64,000 nucleotides of DNA from Natronorubrum texcoconense (GTDB lineage Archaea > Halobacteriota > Halobacteria > Halobacteriales > Natrialbaceae), in contig NZ_FNFE01000002.1 of the NCBI RefSeq assembly GCF_900100335.1, positions 186,001 through 250,000 on the forward strand. Direction: 5' to 3'. The stretch's first letter is position 1. Every line of letters starts with the position of its first letter. Made by a program: the position numbers and the translations under genes. Below the pieces are notes generated by a model, which did no database searches, was not told the DNA's origin, and saw only the letters and a program-made list of their open reading frames with translations. Below, one piece after another: positions 43,656-49,615 of the stretch.

Positions 43656-44987
43656 CTATTCGTAGTGCTGTTCGGTCCGCAGCTCCCAGAGGTCGTCGAA
43701 CGTGATGACCTCGACGTCCGCATCGTCGATGTACTCGAGGAGGTCCTCGTAGTCGTCCTCCGGCATGGTGTTGTTCGCCTCGAACTCGTGGAAGTTGAGG
43801 ATCGTACACTGGTTGTGTTCGGCGGCGAGATCGACGCAGCGCTTCGAGATGTCGATGTCGTGGCCGATGGTTCGGGGTAGCGCCAACGGATCGAAGCCGT
43901 AGACGCTCGTCGTGTTGACGTTGCCCGCCTGGTTGAAGCCACCGCAGTAGTGGTAGTCGGTCTTCTGCTCGAGGCTCGACCGGTCGTAGCTGTTGTGCGG
44001 GTAGACGATGTAGTCGGCGCCCTCGAACTCGTTGTTGATGAACCACTGTTTGTCGTTTCGGAGCCTGTTTTCGATCTCCTCGTCGTCGTCGTACTCGTGA
44101 ATTGGCGTGTGCGTGCCGTGGACGACGATCTGGTCGCCCTCCTCCTGGCGCTCCTGGAGCTCCGAGACCGACATGACGCCGTCGCGTCCCTGTTCGGTCC
44201 ACCGCGGAACCGGCGCCTGAACGGTTCGGAAGCCGTACTCGTCGTGCAGCGGCGAGGCCGTCTCGTAGTAGTCGCTGGTGCCGTCGTCCCAGACCAGCAT
44301 GACGTACCCCTGGTCGGGCTTCTCGTGGGTTCGCAGGTCGTCGATCCAGACCTCCGCCTCGTCCATCGAGTGGAGGACCTGAATCTCGAGACGGTCGAGC
44401 GAGTCCATCGCGGGTTCGTACTCGCTCTGTTCGAAGACGCCGGGACTCGAGCGGAACCAGCCCACGTCGGGCTCGCGATACGTGATTTCGCGGAGCGAGT
44501 ACACGCGCTCGCTGCCGAACTGGTCGACGAGACGCAGGTTGATCGTGATGTTCTGTGGCGTCGTCGTCCGAATCGCAAAGGAGAGGTCCGTCTCGGTGAG
44601 ATCTTCACCGCTGAGATCTCGCTGGGCGACGACGTTCTCGCTGCCGTCGGACTCCAGTTTGTAGCTCTGATCGCCGTCGAAGACGACGTCCTCGTCCGCC
44701 TCCCCGGAGCCCTGGACGACGTCCCAGGCGTCGAGGTCCTCGAAGTCATCGAAGGACGTCCCCGGCTGCCGGTACTGTTCGCGGCTGTTGTACTCGGTCT
44801 CGAGCGACGGAACGCCGTCCGCGAGCGCTGCTGCCCGCTCGGTGGTTTCTCCCTCCTCCGAGGAGTCGTCACCGTCGGAGCTGCCAGTGAGCGACTCGAG
44901 GCGATCGGTACACCCCGCGAGACCAGCGGCCGCGGTTGCACCGGACAGTGCGAGGATTCGTCGTCGCGTCGGTCGGTCGGATGTCAT
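43656..44987 (-). CDS. Tat-exported polysaccharide deacetylase-like lipoprotein (copy 3)
   Basis: 443 residues and homologous along its length to copy 2. The Tat signal RRRILALSGATAAAGLAGC ends in a lipobox. A sandwich domain (about residues 70-220) precedes the NodB-like domain, which starts VMLVWDDGTSDYYETASPLH and keeps the metal histidines in VVHGTHTPIHEY. YIVYPHNSYDRSSLE and TILNFHEFEANNTMPED follow. The C terminus (VEVITFDDLWELR) matches the other copies. In contrast to copy 2 the metal site is intact. It probably edits the surface glycan. Confidence 0.82.
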   Translation of the reverse strand: MTSDRPTRRRILALSGATAAAGLAGCTDRLESLTGSSDGDDSSEEGETTERAAALADGVPSLETEYNSREQYRQPGTSFDDFEDLDAWDVVQGSGEADEDVVFDGDQSYKLESDGSENVVAQRDLSGEDLTETDLSFAIRTTTPQNITINLRLVDQFGSERVYSLREITYREPDVGWFRSSPGVFEQSEYEPAMDSLDRLEIQVLHSMDEAEVWIDDLRTHEKPDQGYVMLVWDDGTSDYYETASPLHDEYGFRTVQAPVPRWTEQGRDGVMSVSELQERQEEGDQIVVHGTHTPIHEYDDDEEIENRLRNDKQWFINNEFEGADYIVYPHNSYDRSSLEQKTDYHYCGGFNQAGNVNTTSVYGFDPLALPRTIGHDIDISKRCVDLAAEHNQCTILNFHEFEANNTMPEDDYEDLLEYIDDADVEVITFDDLWELRTEQHYE

Positions 44988-45210: not shown

Positions 45211-46905
45211 ATGAATAGGGAGCTCTTCGGCGTATTCGGGAGTATCGAGACGTTCGACCGATTCAGATCCAGCGACGAGTTCGACGAGGTGCTCGCTGGC
45301 TCGACTACCACGGTCGGGATCAGGGACTCCGACCTCGGAACCCACGGCTGGAGCGCGCGATACGCCGGCGACGACGGCTACTGCGTCATCTGGGGGGAGG
45401 TGTACGTCCCCGGCGACGCCTCGAACGCCGCTCGGTGGCTCCTCGAGCGCTACGAGGCGGACGGCCGCGAGGCCCTCTCGGAACTCAACGGCTCGTACGT
45501 CGCCGTGCTCGACTCCGCGGCCGCCGACGAAGCGATCGTCGCGACCGACGTGGTCCGTTCCCGGGAATGTTTCTACACCGACGACCCCGGCGTTCGCGTC
45601 TTCGGCACCGACCCCGCCGAGGTTAGCCGTCCCGTCGCGGACCCGACGCTCGACCGAAACGGTATCCTCGAGTTCTTGCATCTTGGCGTGACCCTCGGGG
45701 AGAAGACCGGCGTGGACGAACTGAGCCGGCTCCCGATAGACAGTGCGCTGACGGTCGATTCGGTCGACTCGCTCGACCGGTTCGTCTATCAGCCACAAGA
45801 GTTCGACTACGCGACCGAACTCGCCGAGCGTCTCGAGCGCGCGCTTCGACGGCGGTCGGCGCTCCCGGGGACGAAAGGGGTACTCCTCTCGGCGGGGTAC
45901 GATTCGCGGATCATCCTCTCGCAGGTGGCCGACATCGACCACAGTTACACGGTCGGCTCGCCGGACGCACAGGAGGTACAGGGCGCGAAACGACTCGCCG
46001 AGCAGTACGACGCGAGCCACACCGCGTTCCCGCCGGACGAGCGCTATCTCCGCGCCGACGAGTCGAAGATCCGGTACTCACAGGGGATCAAAGAGTCGTT
46101 GCACATCCATCACGCCGGCTACACCGACGAGATGGACGTCGATACGATGTATCACGGACTCCTCTGTGATACGTTCTTCCGAGGTCACTTCACCGCACAG
46201 GACAGCGTCGACGTCTTCGGCAAACGCGTCCCGGTCTCCCGACTCGATCCGGATCCGGACCCGATCGAGTCGCTGCTCGAGAAGTTCGGCTACAGCCGCG
46301 AAGCCAGCCTCGAACTCGCCGAGCGAACGTCGTTCGACGTGGAGCCGGAGGCGTTCGTCAGGGAGGCGATCGACGCCGAGTTCGACGCGAGGGGTGATCG
46401 CGCGCGGACGGTACAGAACACGCTCACCTGCGTCGGTATCGCCAATCAGCCGTCGATTCCGTTCCACAACCACCTGTCGGATCAATTCCTGACGTCGTTT
46501 CTGGCGACCGACCGCGAACTCGTCGACTGGCATCTTCGGACGCCACCGGAACACCGGACGACCGACACCTTTCTCCAGGCGTGCAAACAGCTCGACGGCG
46601 ACGTGTTGCGACACAGGCCGCCGGATCGGCCGTACGATACGATGCTGTTCAACGAGATCGAGCGATTCGTTCGTCGGAAGACGCCGTTGCTCTCGTCGTT
46701 TCAACCGCCCTGGCCCGACCGCAAGACCCTCTTCGAACGCCACGACTTCGACCGGCGGCTGCTCGCCGACGCCGAACACGTCCACGACCTCCCCGCCAGA
46801 CACAAGCTTCGGCTGATCGACCTTCGCGGATGGCTCGAGTGCTGGACGGACTCGAGAGACCGATCCATTCCGTGGCTCTCGCCACCGCAGTCGACGATCG
46901 GATAA
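45211..46905 (+). CDS. Asparagine-synthase-like protein without the glutaminase cysteine
   Basis: 564 residues. Residues 1-180 have the Ntn glutamine-amidotransferase fold (NGSYVAVLDS; TDVVRSRECFYTDDPGVRVF) but start MNRELFGVFG where AsnB has MCG, so the nucleophile Cys2 is missing. The synthetase domain has a modified ATP pyrophosphatase loop, GVLLSAGYDSRIILSQ, in place of SGGxDS. In O-antigen loci such as that of Pseudomonas aeruginosa, related WbpS amidates uronic acids. Here the amine may come from free ammonium or another partner, or the reaction may differ. It is divergent from deacetylase copy 3. Confidence 0.8.
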   Translation: MNRELFGVFGSIETFDRFRSSDEFDEVLAGSTTTVGIRDSDLGTHGWSARYAGDDGYCVIWGEVYVPGDASNAARWLLERYEADGREALSELNGSYVAVLDSAAADEAIVATDVVRSRECFYTDDPGVRVFGTDPAEVSRPVADPTLDRNGILEFLHLGVTLGEKTGVDELSRLPIDSALTVDSVDSLDRFVYQPQEFDYATELAERLERALRRRSALPGTKGVLLSAGYDSRIILSQVADIDHSYTVGSPDAQEVQGAKRLAEQYDASHTAFPPDERYLRADESKIRYSQGIKESLHIHHAGYTDEMDVDTMYHGLLCDTFFRGHFTAQDSVDVFGKRVPVSRLDPDPDPIESLLEKFGYSREASLELAERTSFDVEPEAFVREAIDAEFDARGDRARTVQNTLTCVGIANQPSIPFHNHLSDQFLTSFLATDRELVDWHLRTPPEHRTTDTFLQACKQLDGDVLRHRPPDRPYDTMLFNEIERFVRRKTPLLSSFQPPWPDRKTLFERHDFDRRLLADAEHVHDLPARHKLRLIDLRGWLECWTDSRDRSIPWLSPPQSTIG

Positions 46906-47015
46906 CGTATTCGATACAAATCGCCCGCCGCGAATACGGTTCGACGAGATAGAACACCGGCCGAAACCCGTCTAATGACGGGATAGATCTGTTGCAGCCG
47001 CCAAACCGAGACAAT

Positions 47016-47024
47016 ACTTATATG
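47016..47024 (+). promoter_or_regulatory. TATA box for the frameshifted DUF7344-like gene
   Basis: acttatatg is centred about 27 bases before the ATG at 47047, so transcription would begin at or beside that ATG. This supports 47047 rather than the GTG at 47135 as the true start. Confidence 0.5.
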
Positions 47025-47046
47025 TCACGCAGTTTTAGCGCGAGTC

Positions 47047-47578
47047 ATGCGTCTGACGCCGCCTTGGTTTCGATCCTCGTCGGAAGACCCCCCCCGGAGA
47101 GGAATCCGATGGTGATCCGGACACCAGCACCGGAGTGACGATCTATCACTCCCCGCCGAGCGATCTTTCAGAGGAGCCGTCCGTGTCCAGCCGACGAGCA
47201 ACGCACTTCGTCCCAGAGTCCGATACCGCGCTGATAGTCGAACTCGACGAGATGAGTACGCCGGTGACCGTCGACGAGGTCGCCGATAAGCTGATCGCGC
47301 CCGCGGACCCGCCGGTCGAAACCTGGGCGGCCGTCCACGAACAGTTACATCAGGATCGGCTTCCGGCACTCGACGCCTCGAACGACATCGTGTTCGACGA
47401 GTCCCAGGGGGTCGTCGAGCGGCCGCCACAGGCTCGATCCGGAACACAGAACGGCATCGCAATGGCGTCAGCCGTCTCGAGAACACCACCGATTACGGCG
47501 TCCGGCGTGGTTCTCACGGTTCTTTCGCTCGCGGTGTTGGGTGCAGCTATTTTCGTCGTACTAACGGTTGTCGTATAA
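47047..47578 (+). pseudogene. DUF7344-like HTH protein, frameshifted in a C run
   Basis: The leaderless ATG at 47047 reads MRLTPPWFRSSSEDPP and then leaves frame at a run of eight C (47088-47095). With seven Cs it continues GEESDGDPDTSTGVTIYHS into the long frame that ends at 47578. From the internal GTG at 47135 a 147-residue product is still possible. The domain has SDTALIVELDEMSTPVTVDE, VHEQLHQDRLPALDASNDIV and a single C-terminal helix, as in its DUF7344-like neighbours. Sequencing error, real mutation or phase variation are all open. Confidence 0.6.
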
Positions 47579-47601
47579 CAGTTACAGTGCGGGATCAGTC
47601 G

Positions 47602-48228
47602 TTACCGGTTGACGAGTCGGCTAACGGTCAGTACCGAAAACAGGAGGAGAATCAGCGCGCTCAACGCGATCCCCGAGAGGAACGAGGTGAACGGCAGCTC
47701 GACGACGGCACCGACCAGGAGGACGTAACAGAGGACCGTCGCGCCGATGTAGTAGTCGTCCCAGTTCTCGTCGGTCGCTTGTGCGGGCATGGATTCGTCG
47801 GCCGGCTCGATCTGGAGGTACTGATCGACCTGATTCGCGAGCGGCTTCCGTTCGACGATACCGCGGTTTTTCTGGTAGTCGATAATGCCCGCCTCGTCGA
47901 GTTTCGACAGGTGAGACTGGTAGAGCGGGATGTAGACGCGCTGGCGTTGCGTGGACGTGAGTTGTTCGACCGTCGTATCGTGTTCCCACGCCGCGACCTG
48001 CTCTGCAATATCGCGCATACGTACCGGTCCTTCGGTGCCACGAAGGTATCGAAGAACCATTCGGCGGCGTTCGTTCTGCAGCAGGTGGAAGATTTCGTCC
48101 TTCGAAAACGCAGAGGTTTCCGATGGCTGGTCGACGTCACCATCCATAGGCGCTTCCGATGGCTGATCGACGTCACCGTCCGTCTCCTGCTCACCGTGTT
48201 CTTTTTCGCTGATATATGTCGCGTTCAT
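47602..48228 (-). CDS. DUF7344-like HTH protein with membrane helices
   Basis: 208 residues, close in sequence to the protein at 26489-27130. The HTH region reads AFSKDEIFHLLQNERRRMVL, VRMRDIAEQVAAWEHDTTV, QRQRVYIPLYQSHLSKLDEA and GIIDYQKNRGIVER. Two hydrophobic helices end the protein (about residues 158-205). A repeat of GDVDQPSE in the polar N terminus shows local duplication. A TATA-like box supports a near-leaderless start. It converges with the frameshifted family member at 47047; a regulatory role is inferred from the fold. Confidence 0.8.
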   Translation of the reverse strand: MNATYISEKEHGEQETDGDVDQPSEAPMDGDVDQPSETSAFSKDEIFHLLQNERRRMVLRYLRGTEGPVRMRDIAEQVAAWEHDTTVEQLTSTQRQRVYIPLYQSHLSKLDEAGIIDYQKNRGIVERKPLANQVDQYLQIEPADESMPAQATDENWDDYYIGATVLCYVLLVGAVVELPFTSFLSGIALSALILLLFSVLTVSRLVNR

Positions 48229-48256
48229 CGCACCAATATCCCGTAAACAGAAGGGG

Positions 48257-48265
48257 GTAATAAAG
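48257..48265 (-). promoter_or_regulatory. TATA-like box for the 47602-48228 gene
   Basis: The minus strand reads ctttattac about 29-37 bases before the ATG at 48228. Confidence 0.4.
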
Positions 48266-48580
48266 CATTGGAACTGTAAATTGTCGATATTCGCGATTTA
48301 GATGATTTCACGAACCTTGATCGCTTTTCTAGTGTTTTTATATCTGGTCCAGAGCCCTCTTACTGCGCGATCATCGGCATACCTGGATCTGATTGCAGTT
48401 TTTAATTTCTTAAGCTGAATCGGAAAAATTGCGAACGGTCTATCCGAATGTGGGACTGTTGTACCCCGTGGGATCGTTCAGAACCGGCGAAAGAGACTCA
48501 CGTAGAACCTGTATCTGATTTTTGATATAATGTCCCCCGGCAGCCGGCAGACACCCCCTTCAGTAGGCCGCTTACCGTGC
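48266..48580. other. A/T-rich intergenic region
   Basis: About 315 bases between two divergent promoters, with several A/T-rich tracts (tttttatatc near 48336, tttttaatttc near 48400, tttttgatataatg near 48520). They may hold further promoter elements or an untranslated RNA; no gene was found. Confidence 0.4.
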
Positions 48581-48590
48581 CGATAATAAA
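48581..48590 (+). promoter_or_regulatory. TATA-like box for the DUF1616 gene
   Basis: cgataataaa is located 27-36 bases before the ATG at 48617, consistent with a leaderless transcript. Confidence 0.45.
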
Positions 48591-48616
48591 CCAGCTATCG
48601 CCCCAACGACTCCCTC

Positions 48617-49615
48617 ATGAGCGACAATCACTGGTGGTTTTTCGACCTCGCAGCCGTCATCGCGATCACTGGCGCAGTGACGTTCGGGATATTTTCCGGC
48701 GTCGGTGGCGTCGTCCGAACGGTGCTTCTTGTTCCGCTCGTCTGCTTTCTACCGGGCTATGCGCTCGTCTCTGCGCTGTTTCCGGACGAGCCGACCGACG
48801 AGTATCAGCCGTTCGACGACGAGGAAACCGCGCTCGGAAATCCGCTGATCGTCACTGGGGGACTCGAGTCGGTCGAACGAGTGATACTGTCAGTGGTCTT
48901 TAGCGTTGCGACCGTTCCGATGGTTGCCCTTCTGGCGTCCGCAACCCCTAGGGGTTTGACGCTCGAAACGGTGCTCCCCGGGATTGCAGTGTTCACGGTC
49001 GTGCTTTCGGTACTCGCGATTGGTTCTCGCTATCGGTGTCCAGCCGACCGCCGCTTCGCGCCGTCGCTCTCGTCCGCGCTATCGTTTCACACACCAGCGC
49101 GACCGAACGCGTACTCGCGAACGAACACCCGACCGTACAACGTGGCGATCGTCGTCGCGTTGGTCCTGTTGGTCGCGAGTGCCGGCTTCGCGATCGCGAA
49201 CCCACCCCAGGGCGACGGCTTTACCGAGTTCGCCGTCGAAACCGAGACCGTAAGCGGGGATATCGACACCATGTATCAGTCGACGTACACCGCCGGTGAG
49301 ACCGATGAACTCGCGGTGTCGATCACCAATCAGGAACACGAGGAACGCGACTACACGACCGTGGCGTTGCTCGAGCGTGTCGGCGACGGCGACGCCAACG
49401 ATAGCGATGCGACCGTCACCGAAGCGGCCGAACTCGATAGGCAGTCGGCGACGGTCGCCCACGGCGACGCACACGAGCAAACGCTCGAGATCACGCCGTC
49501 GATGCAGGGGGATGATCTCCGACTGACGCTGTTACTCTACGACGACGAGCCGCCGTCGGAGCCGACGGCCGAGAACGCCTATCGAGCGATCCACCTGCCG
49601 ATCGAAGCCGAATAG
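48617..49615 (+). CDS. DUF1616 membrane protein
   Basis: 332 residues. The N-terminal half has about four helices with a conserved-looking segment VPLVCFLPGYALVSALFPDE and LESVERVILSVVFSVATVP, typical of archaeal DUF1616 proteins. A further helix (VAIVVALVLLVASAGFAIA) precedes an extracytoplasmic beta-sandwich-like domain that ends with YRAIHLPIEAE. DUF1616 genes are frequent in archaeal surface-polysaccharide loci, but their biochemical role is unknown. The stop is directly followed by the ATG of the next gene. Confidence 0.82.
   Translation: MSDNHWWFFDLAAVIAITGAVTFGIFSGVGGVVRTVLLVPLVCFLPGYALVSALFPDEPTDEYQPFDDEETALGNPLIVTGGLESVERVILSVVFSVATVPMVALLASATPRGLTLETVLPGIAVFTVVLSVLAIGSRYRCPADRRFAPSLSSALSFHTPARPNAYSRTNTRPYNVAIVVALVLLVASAGFAIANPPQGDGFTEFAVETETVSGDIDTMYQSTYTAGETDELAVSITNQEHEERDYTTVALLERVGDGDANDSDATVTEAAELDRQSATVAHGDAHEQTLEITPSMQGDDLRLTLLLYDDEPPSEPTAENAYRAIHLPIEAE

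Follow-up and report, generated by a model that had tools for sequence, protein, structure and literature searches.

An uninterrupted run of eight C near the 5' end of a small, regulator-like haloarchaeal gene raises the question of whether the gene is turned on and off by changes in tract length, has been broken by a single mutation, or has been misread in the assembly and, along with this, where the gene begins. The run lies in the window, as we call the whole stretch of 64,000 nucleotides analyzed here (G000:C3:186001-250000), which is part of a 4.64 Mb haloarchaeal genome (G000) in 11 contigs, and it is read identically in the whole-genome copy (G000:C3:233088-233095). The initial annotation held that the run costs the ATG at 47047 its frame, and this proved correct: translation from this ATG yields MRLTPPWFRSSSEDPPRRGIRW and terminates at 47113-47115 after 22 codons, and a downstream ORF of 147 codons, from GTG 47135 to 47578, occupies another frame. 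In the closest relative (G003), both parts are joined in one 177-codon ORF, and 23 of the 23 orthologues compared are open in one frame from the ATG past the site of the run. Judging from the aligned sequences, the gene at this locus is real, and its copy in the window is frameshifted. The eight bases fall on codons 14-17, off frame, so that the length of the tract sets the frame, as slipped-strand switching would demand. It is nevertheless quite likely, in our assessment, that the locus is a conserved DUF7344-like gene starting at 47047 and broken by one extra C, and that this break is an isolated lesion rather than an evolved on/off switch. In annotation, 47047 should serve as the start of the gene, with a frameshift flag; an automatic start at GTG 47135 would be wrong. 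The features of the locus are collected in Table 1.

Table 1. Coordinates of the features at the locus (window positions) and the evidence on which each is called
Feature	Position	Strand	Evidence
Upstream neighbor, asparagine-synthase-like protein	45211..46905	+	Pfam Asn_synthase, 24.8 bits; 23/23 loci
Promoter core: BRE-like stretch and TATA box (TTATAT, 47018-47023)	47004..47024	+	Ungapped alignment on the ATG
5' part of the gene as read here: 22 codons from the ATG, closed by TGA	47047..47115	+	Translation
GCGTCTGACGC, 11 bases conserved at the nucleotide level that overlap the start codon; inverted repeat of 5-1-5 form (near-palindrome)	47049..47059	+	23 orthologues
C8 run, one-base frameshift site	47088..47095	+	Nearest relative G003 has GATCCTCCC, one base fewer
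Rest of the DUF7344-like gene, lying in the other frame, with the winged-helix domain and a C-terminal membrane helix	47116..47578	+	Orthologue alignment, Pfam, AlphaFold
Convergent neighbor, DUF7344 protein	47602..48228	-	Pfam DUF7344, 104.9 bits; adjoins the orthologue in 23/23 loci
Conserved neighbor, DUF1616 protein	48617..49615	+	Pfam DUF1616, 289.6 bits; 23/23 loci

The orthologues were collected by a protein search with the downstream ORF as the query, which produced matches in 26 of 61 genomes, and by a search of a collection of genome contigs, which added five loci in other species, one of them the same record as G005. The set of 23 is defined by the N-terminus MRLTP, with the G005 duplicate and the window's own genome removed; eight weaker matches without MRLTP (L020, L023, L024, L025, L026, L027, L029 and L030) were taken as distant homologues and left out, and L028 is the second piece of L022. 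The comparison covers one genome per species, with 10 genomes in the genus, and a plasmid collection searched for further strains returned no match. Orthologues with MRLTP were found in 19 of the 60 relatives searched, and all 23 loci share a fixed block consisting of an asparagine-synthase-like gene, the DUF7344-like gene, a convergent DUF7344 gene and a DUF1616 gene (window 45211-49615). A polysaccharide deacetylase gene (43656-44987) adjoins this block in the window.

These orthologues determine the start of the gene, for which the initial annotation had proposed the ATG at 47047 with a TATA box upstream; both proposals stand. The hexamer TTATAT lies 24 to 29 bases ahead of the ATG, and in an ungapped alignment on the ATG (the window and 22 orthologues), each of its positions, from -29 to -24, is the same in 22-23 of the 23 rows; the 23rd orthologue (G034), which is outside this alignment, has the same promoter layout. 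The spacing between the TATA box and the ATG is constant among the orthologues, with the center of the box 26-27 bases before the start codon, and MRLTP is encoded at the equivalent ATG in all 23 full-length orthologues. Given this shared ATG and the same distance to the TATA box, the start is placed at 47047, and, because the position of TTATAT is constant, the transcript is probably leaderless or near-leaderless and would begin at 47047. For Natrinema hsp70 mRNAs, expression is reported to be influenced by the bases from -4 to +6 around the start, with GUG being an inefficient start codon (PMC4574771). A gene beginning at GTG 47135, with the upstream ORF irrelevant, would still have an ORF of 147 codons that contains the entire winged-helix domain, but the equivalent of this GTG is an internal Val in 21 of the 23 orthologues (GTG in 10, GTC in 8, GTT in 3), so that 11 of those have GTC or GTT there, and all 23 begin some 27 or more codons earlier. 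Orthologues starting at the position of GTG 47135, which the initial annotation had named as the observation that would speak against its upstream start, were thus looked for and did not appear, and a start at this GTG is almost certainly wrong.

The promoter and the first codons (window 47004-47060) are conserved at the nucleotide level in the DUF7344-like family. Codons 2-3 are CGT CTG in 23 of 23 orthologues, although CGT accounts for 8.3% of the Arg codons and CTG for 27.7% of the Leu codons in a sample of the window's genome; given that the orthologues were chosen by protein sequence, this identity is not forced by the selection of rows. As controls within the same protein, a well-kept later Arg is CGT in 1 of 21 sequences, and at five other well-kept Leu columns, the modal codon reaches 30-55% in four and 91% in one. 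The 23 rows are related, so no formal probability is attached to this comparison. The symmetry of the near-palindrome (Table 1) is lost in five of the 23 orthologues, those with ACA, and is weak evidence in itself, because 0.23% of positions carry a perfect repeat of this form. The conserved 5' end suggests a signal for regulation, perhaps a site to which a protein binds, or one for initiation. A shared operator or regulon was considered and rejected: the genome contains a single instance of the conserved promoter pattern, and ATGCGTCTGACGCC, with at most 1 mismatch, occurs twice, the second occurrence probably being due to chance. The conserved promoter and first codons are the more durable lead from this locus, by which a control signal at the gene start becomes testable.

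Pfam DUF7344 (PF24035), which we take to be a family with the winged-helix fold, is the top match of the window protein, at 22.1 bits, below the gathering cut-off of 27.8, and hence the protein is called DUF7344-like only. DUF7344 is also the top Pfam match of five named orthologues (17.6, 27.9, 19.7, 26.6 and 25.0 bits), one of which just passes the same cut-off. What sets the family in the window apart from DUF7344 is a conserved N-terminus of its own, MRLTP, together with a hydrophobic helix at the C-terminus. In the AlphaFold model, helices and a two-strand beta wing are predicted with pLDDT of about 90 at residues 41-90, and a C-terminal helix spans residues 122-146 within a hydrophobic stretch (numbering of the GTG-based protein). 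VIA-align yielded hits at Z of 6-8 over residues 28-102, many winged-helix proteins among them, and such values are common and support the fold class only; the search of PDB with Foldseek returned nothing at E <= 0.001, and NCBIfam produced no match for the window protein. The model and the structural neighbors agree on a winged-helix fold, such that the DUF7344-like assignment made initially is retained, now as a DUF7344-like winged-helix protein, and a membrane-anchored DNA-binding regulator is the probable product. Because the gene neighborhood is fixed, the adjoining genes are suggested as its targets. No paper on DUF7344 was found in our literature search; CsmR, a winged-helix regulator of Haloferax, was considered and was not tied to the DUF7344-like family (PMC13286277).

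The C8 itself had been proposed as a phase-variation site, and this claim is not supported by comparison with the relatives. A C run of eight is present at the site in none of the 23 orthologues, the longest being C6 (in G027), so the tract is not kept in close relatives, as might be expected of a phase-variable gene. Aligned with 400 kb of G000, the nearest relative, G003, shows blocks mostly of 86-94% DNA identity (about 90%), and at the site, it has GATCCTCCC, without the run, where the window has GAC followed by seven more C; two synonymous base differences between the two genomes create the run, to which one extra base is added. The run at 47088-47095 is the single C/G run of at least eight bases in these 400 kb, against about 8 predicted from dinucleotide frequencies as a first-order estimate, and it is one of 2 in the complete 4.64 Mb; the other is a run of nine (C10:260536-260544), outside the ORFs scored as coding. 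The C8 is therefore unusual for the window's genome but not for random sequence of the same composition. Tracts of at least seven C are not in excess in the 64 kb window, with 2 overlapping matches vs 7.2 expected. Across G000, C/G runs of at least eight are strongly avoided, with 2 observed vs roughly 100 expected when the 400 kb dinucleotide estimate is scaled up.

A search of the genus for comparable cases identified 30 separate C/G tracts of at least eight bases in 10 genomes, of which 28, at 26 loci, were taken; the window's own tract and one at the start of a G003 contig were left out. The Pfam scan covered nine ORFs at seven loci (eight of the nine ORFs hold the tract), and the other loci were judged by frame statistics only. 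Seven of the nine ORFs matched a Pfam family, two (L096 and L104) matched none, and no two pieces belonged to one family; in the 10 genomes, assessed in these two ways, no second gene broken by such a tract was found. Two other kinds of tract were encountered in this search. An element of about 230-240 bases is common to two species (L100, G007:C61, 1501-1731; L103, G008:C48, 1501-1741), bounded by inverted copies of CACACCCCCCCCACTTTGTCCGC, with the C8/G8 conserved and on contigs of about 30 kb; as a guess, it is possibly a plasmid origin or a mobile element. One Natronorubrum assembly carries very long G runs, of 33 bases at L090 (G005:C38, 1501-1533) and 20 bases at L088 (G005:C26, 1501-1520), both outside the ORFs scored as coding, which may be assembly artefacts.

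The isolated lesion that we favor could have arisen in two steps. The Asp, Pro and Pro codons at the site happen to be GAC CCC CCC, so that a run could form, and the additional C would then come from slippage during replication in the sequenced stock or from an erroneous base call. The run was found in the window's genome only, and switching probably does not occur. If the C8 is real, the product would be a peptide of 22 residues, with the DNA-binding protein scarce or absent. The age of the lesion was approached through codon substitution: from codon 47135 on, dN/dS between the window and G003 is 0.29, compared with 0.20-0.41 in six intact orthologue pairs, and ahead of the run, 13 codons contain a single difference from G003, at a third position. 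Past the run, the frame evolves as it does in intact pairs and is therefore without decay, which means that the lesion is recent or not real. A recent mutation, an error and a switch are all compatible with this absence of decay, which does not discriminate between them.

The quality of the assembly bears on the first two of these. In 400 kb of G000, there are 56 homopolymer runs of at least six bases, 37 of them inside predicted ORFs; 42 runs align to G003, and seven of these have a gap in or near the run. Four of the seven, including the C8, are in no predicted ORF, and of the three inside one, the run at 248378 has a 3-base gap that keeps the frame, and the gaps at 124903 and 281976 are of one base each, within sequence that matches poorly. 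A scan for frameshifts in G000, with ORFs taken from the first start codon and candidates judged by a codon-position test, returned nine candidates among 273 G003 genes with a good counterpart in the 400 kb. Seven of these lack a third-position excess before the break, the upstream part not being coding-like in that frame, and inspection of the two remaining by eye suggests ORFs prolonged upstream beyond the likely start. The reverse scan returned two candidates among 279 genes, and in neither did the sequence before the break show a coding pattern. The scan missed the DUF7344-like gene itself, probably because its first part is too short, and it disclosed no other convincing frameshift among the 273 genes with a counterpart.

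An error of base calling or assembly, in which case the organism has C7 and an intact gene and there is nothing biological to explain, accounts for half of the favored explanation and has, in our view, a little less than an even chance. The C8 is the longest C run of the 400 kb, where an error would be expected; there is no sign of decay, the 23 orthologues are intact, and there is a precedent in haloarchaeal resequencing. There, three single-base losses in poly-C/G tracts of Halobacterium salinarum NRC-1 are called likely sequencing errors by the authors (PMC11834397). Against an error stand the 37 of 56 runs that lie inside ORFs with no other convincing frameshift, although none of these other runs in the 400 kb has eight bases; the clean assembly over this distance makes a plain sequencing error slightly less likely. 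The other half of the favored explanation is a genuine one-base slippage fixed in the stock, that is, a recent null allele of a dispensable gene, and, because the assembly is not full of frameshifts, we judge such a mutation to be about as likely as an error, still somewhat under even. A C7 would be slippage-prone, in a genome that avoids such runs, the sampled assembly is otherwise clean, and with MRLTP orthologues in only 19 of 60 relatives, many do without the gene; yet purifying selection in the tested orthologue pairs (dN/dS 0.20-0.41) and the fixed neighborhood would make a loss unusual.

The features that speak against an isolated lesion are those that resemble a phase-variable locus, namely a tract of off-frame length placed close to the 5' end of what looks like a regulator gene, and the lack of decay is compatible with reversible switching too. 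Phase variation, in which slipped-strand mispairing between C7 and C8 switches the regulator on in some cells of the population and off in others, would account for a C8 one base off frame near the 5' end, for a regulator-like product and for an intact frame past the lesion, but the tract is absent even at about 90% DNA identity and from all 23 orthologues, and the genome as a whole avoids long C/G runs. Also against it, a survey covering 99 prokaryotic genomes, 18 of them archaeal, reported poly(C)/(G) tracts longer than 2 bases to be generally under-represented and not shifted to 5' ends (PMC2831843). A literature search of titles and abstract starts found no homopolymer switch in a haloarchaeon, and the indel rate of Halobacterium salinarum is reported to be low, at 4.75e-11 per site per generation, a value that is not tract-specific (PMC9997560). 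Because the tract is missing in relatives, the haloarchaeal indel rate is low and the poly-C/G differences in Halobacterium are likely sequencing errors, we consider switching improbable. Its more specific form, a membrane-anchored winged-helix regulator with a C7/C8 switch recently acquired in one species and giving on and off cells, is very unlikely; if it were true, as mixed tract lengths would indicate, the locus would be one of few archaeal examples of phase variation through a homopolymer.

Rescue of the C8 allele at the level of expression would be another way for the gene to remain functional, with RNA polymerase slippage or a +1 ribosomal shift on CCC CCC C restoring some full-length protein. 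A run of eight identical bases is the kind of site described for transcriptional slippage (PMC3711429), and the frame past the run is not decayed, but the cases described are usually runs of A or T (PMC3711429), and neither a shift nor a run of eight occurs in any of the 23 orthologues, so the site is not a conserved programmed one. Such rescue is highly unlikely, and an isolated one-base lesion, mutational or technical, continues to be the preferred reading.

Phase-variable genes with poly-C/G tracts are found in Helicobacter, Neisseria and Campylobacter. The locus in the window resembles these bacterial genes in having a C8, off frame by one, near the 5' end of a regulator-like gene, and differs from them in that the tract is absent from the relatives (one genome per species) and long C/G runs are rare in the genome. 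Among archaea, a programmed -1 frameshift is reported for fucA of Sulfolobus (PMC8211752), and there too, a gene is split between two frames, and its full-length relatives have one base less in a homopolymer run. Unlike the slippery region of fucA, which is reported to be conserved among Sulfolobales (PMC8211752), the run in the window is absent in all relatives examined, and no shift site is conserved in the orthologues, all 23 of which are in one frame. The case of Halobacterium salinarum NRC-1 concerned resequenced strains, unlike the single assembly analyzed here, but as at the present locus, a poly-C/G tract in a hypothetical gene of a haloarchaeon differs by one base (PMC11834397).
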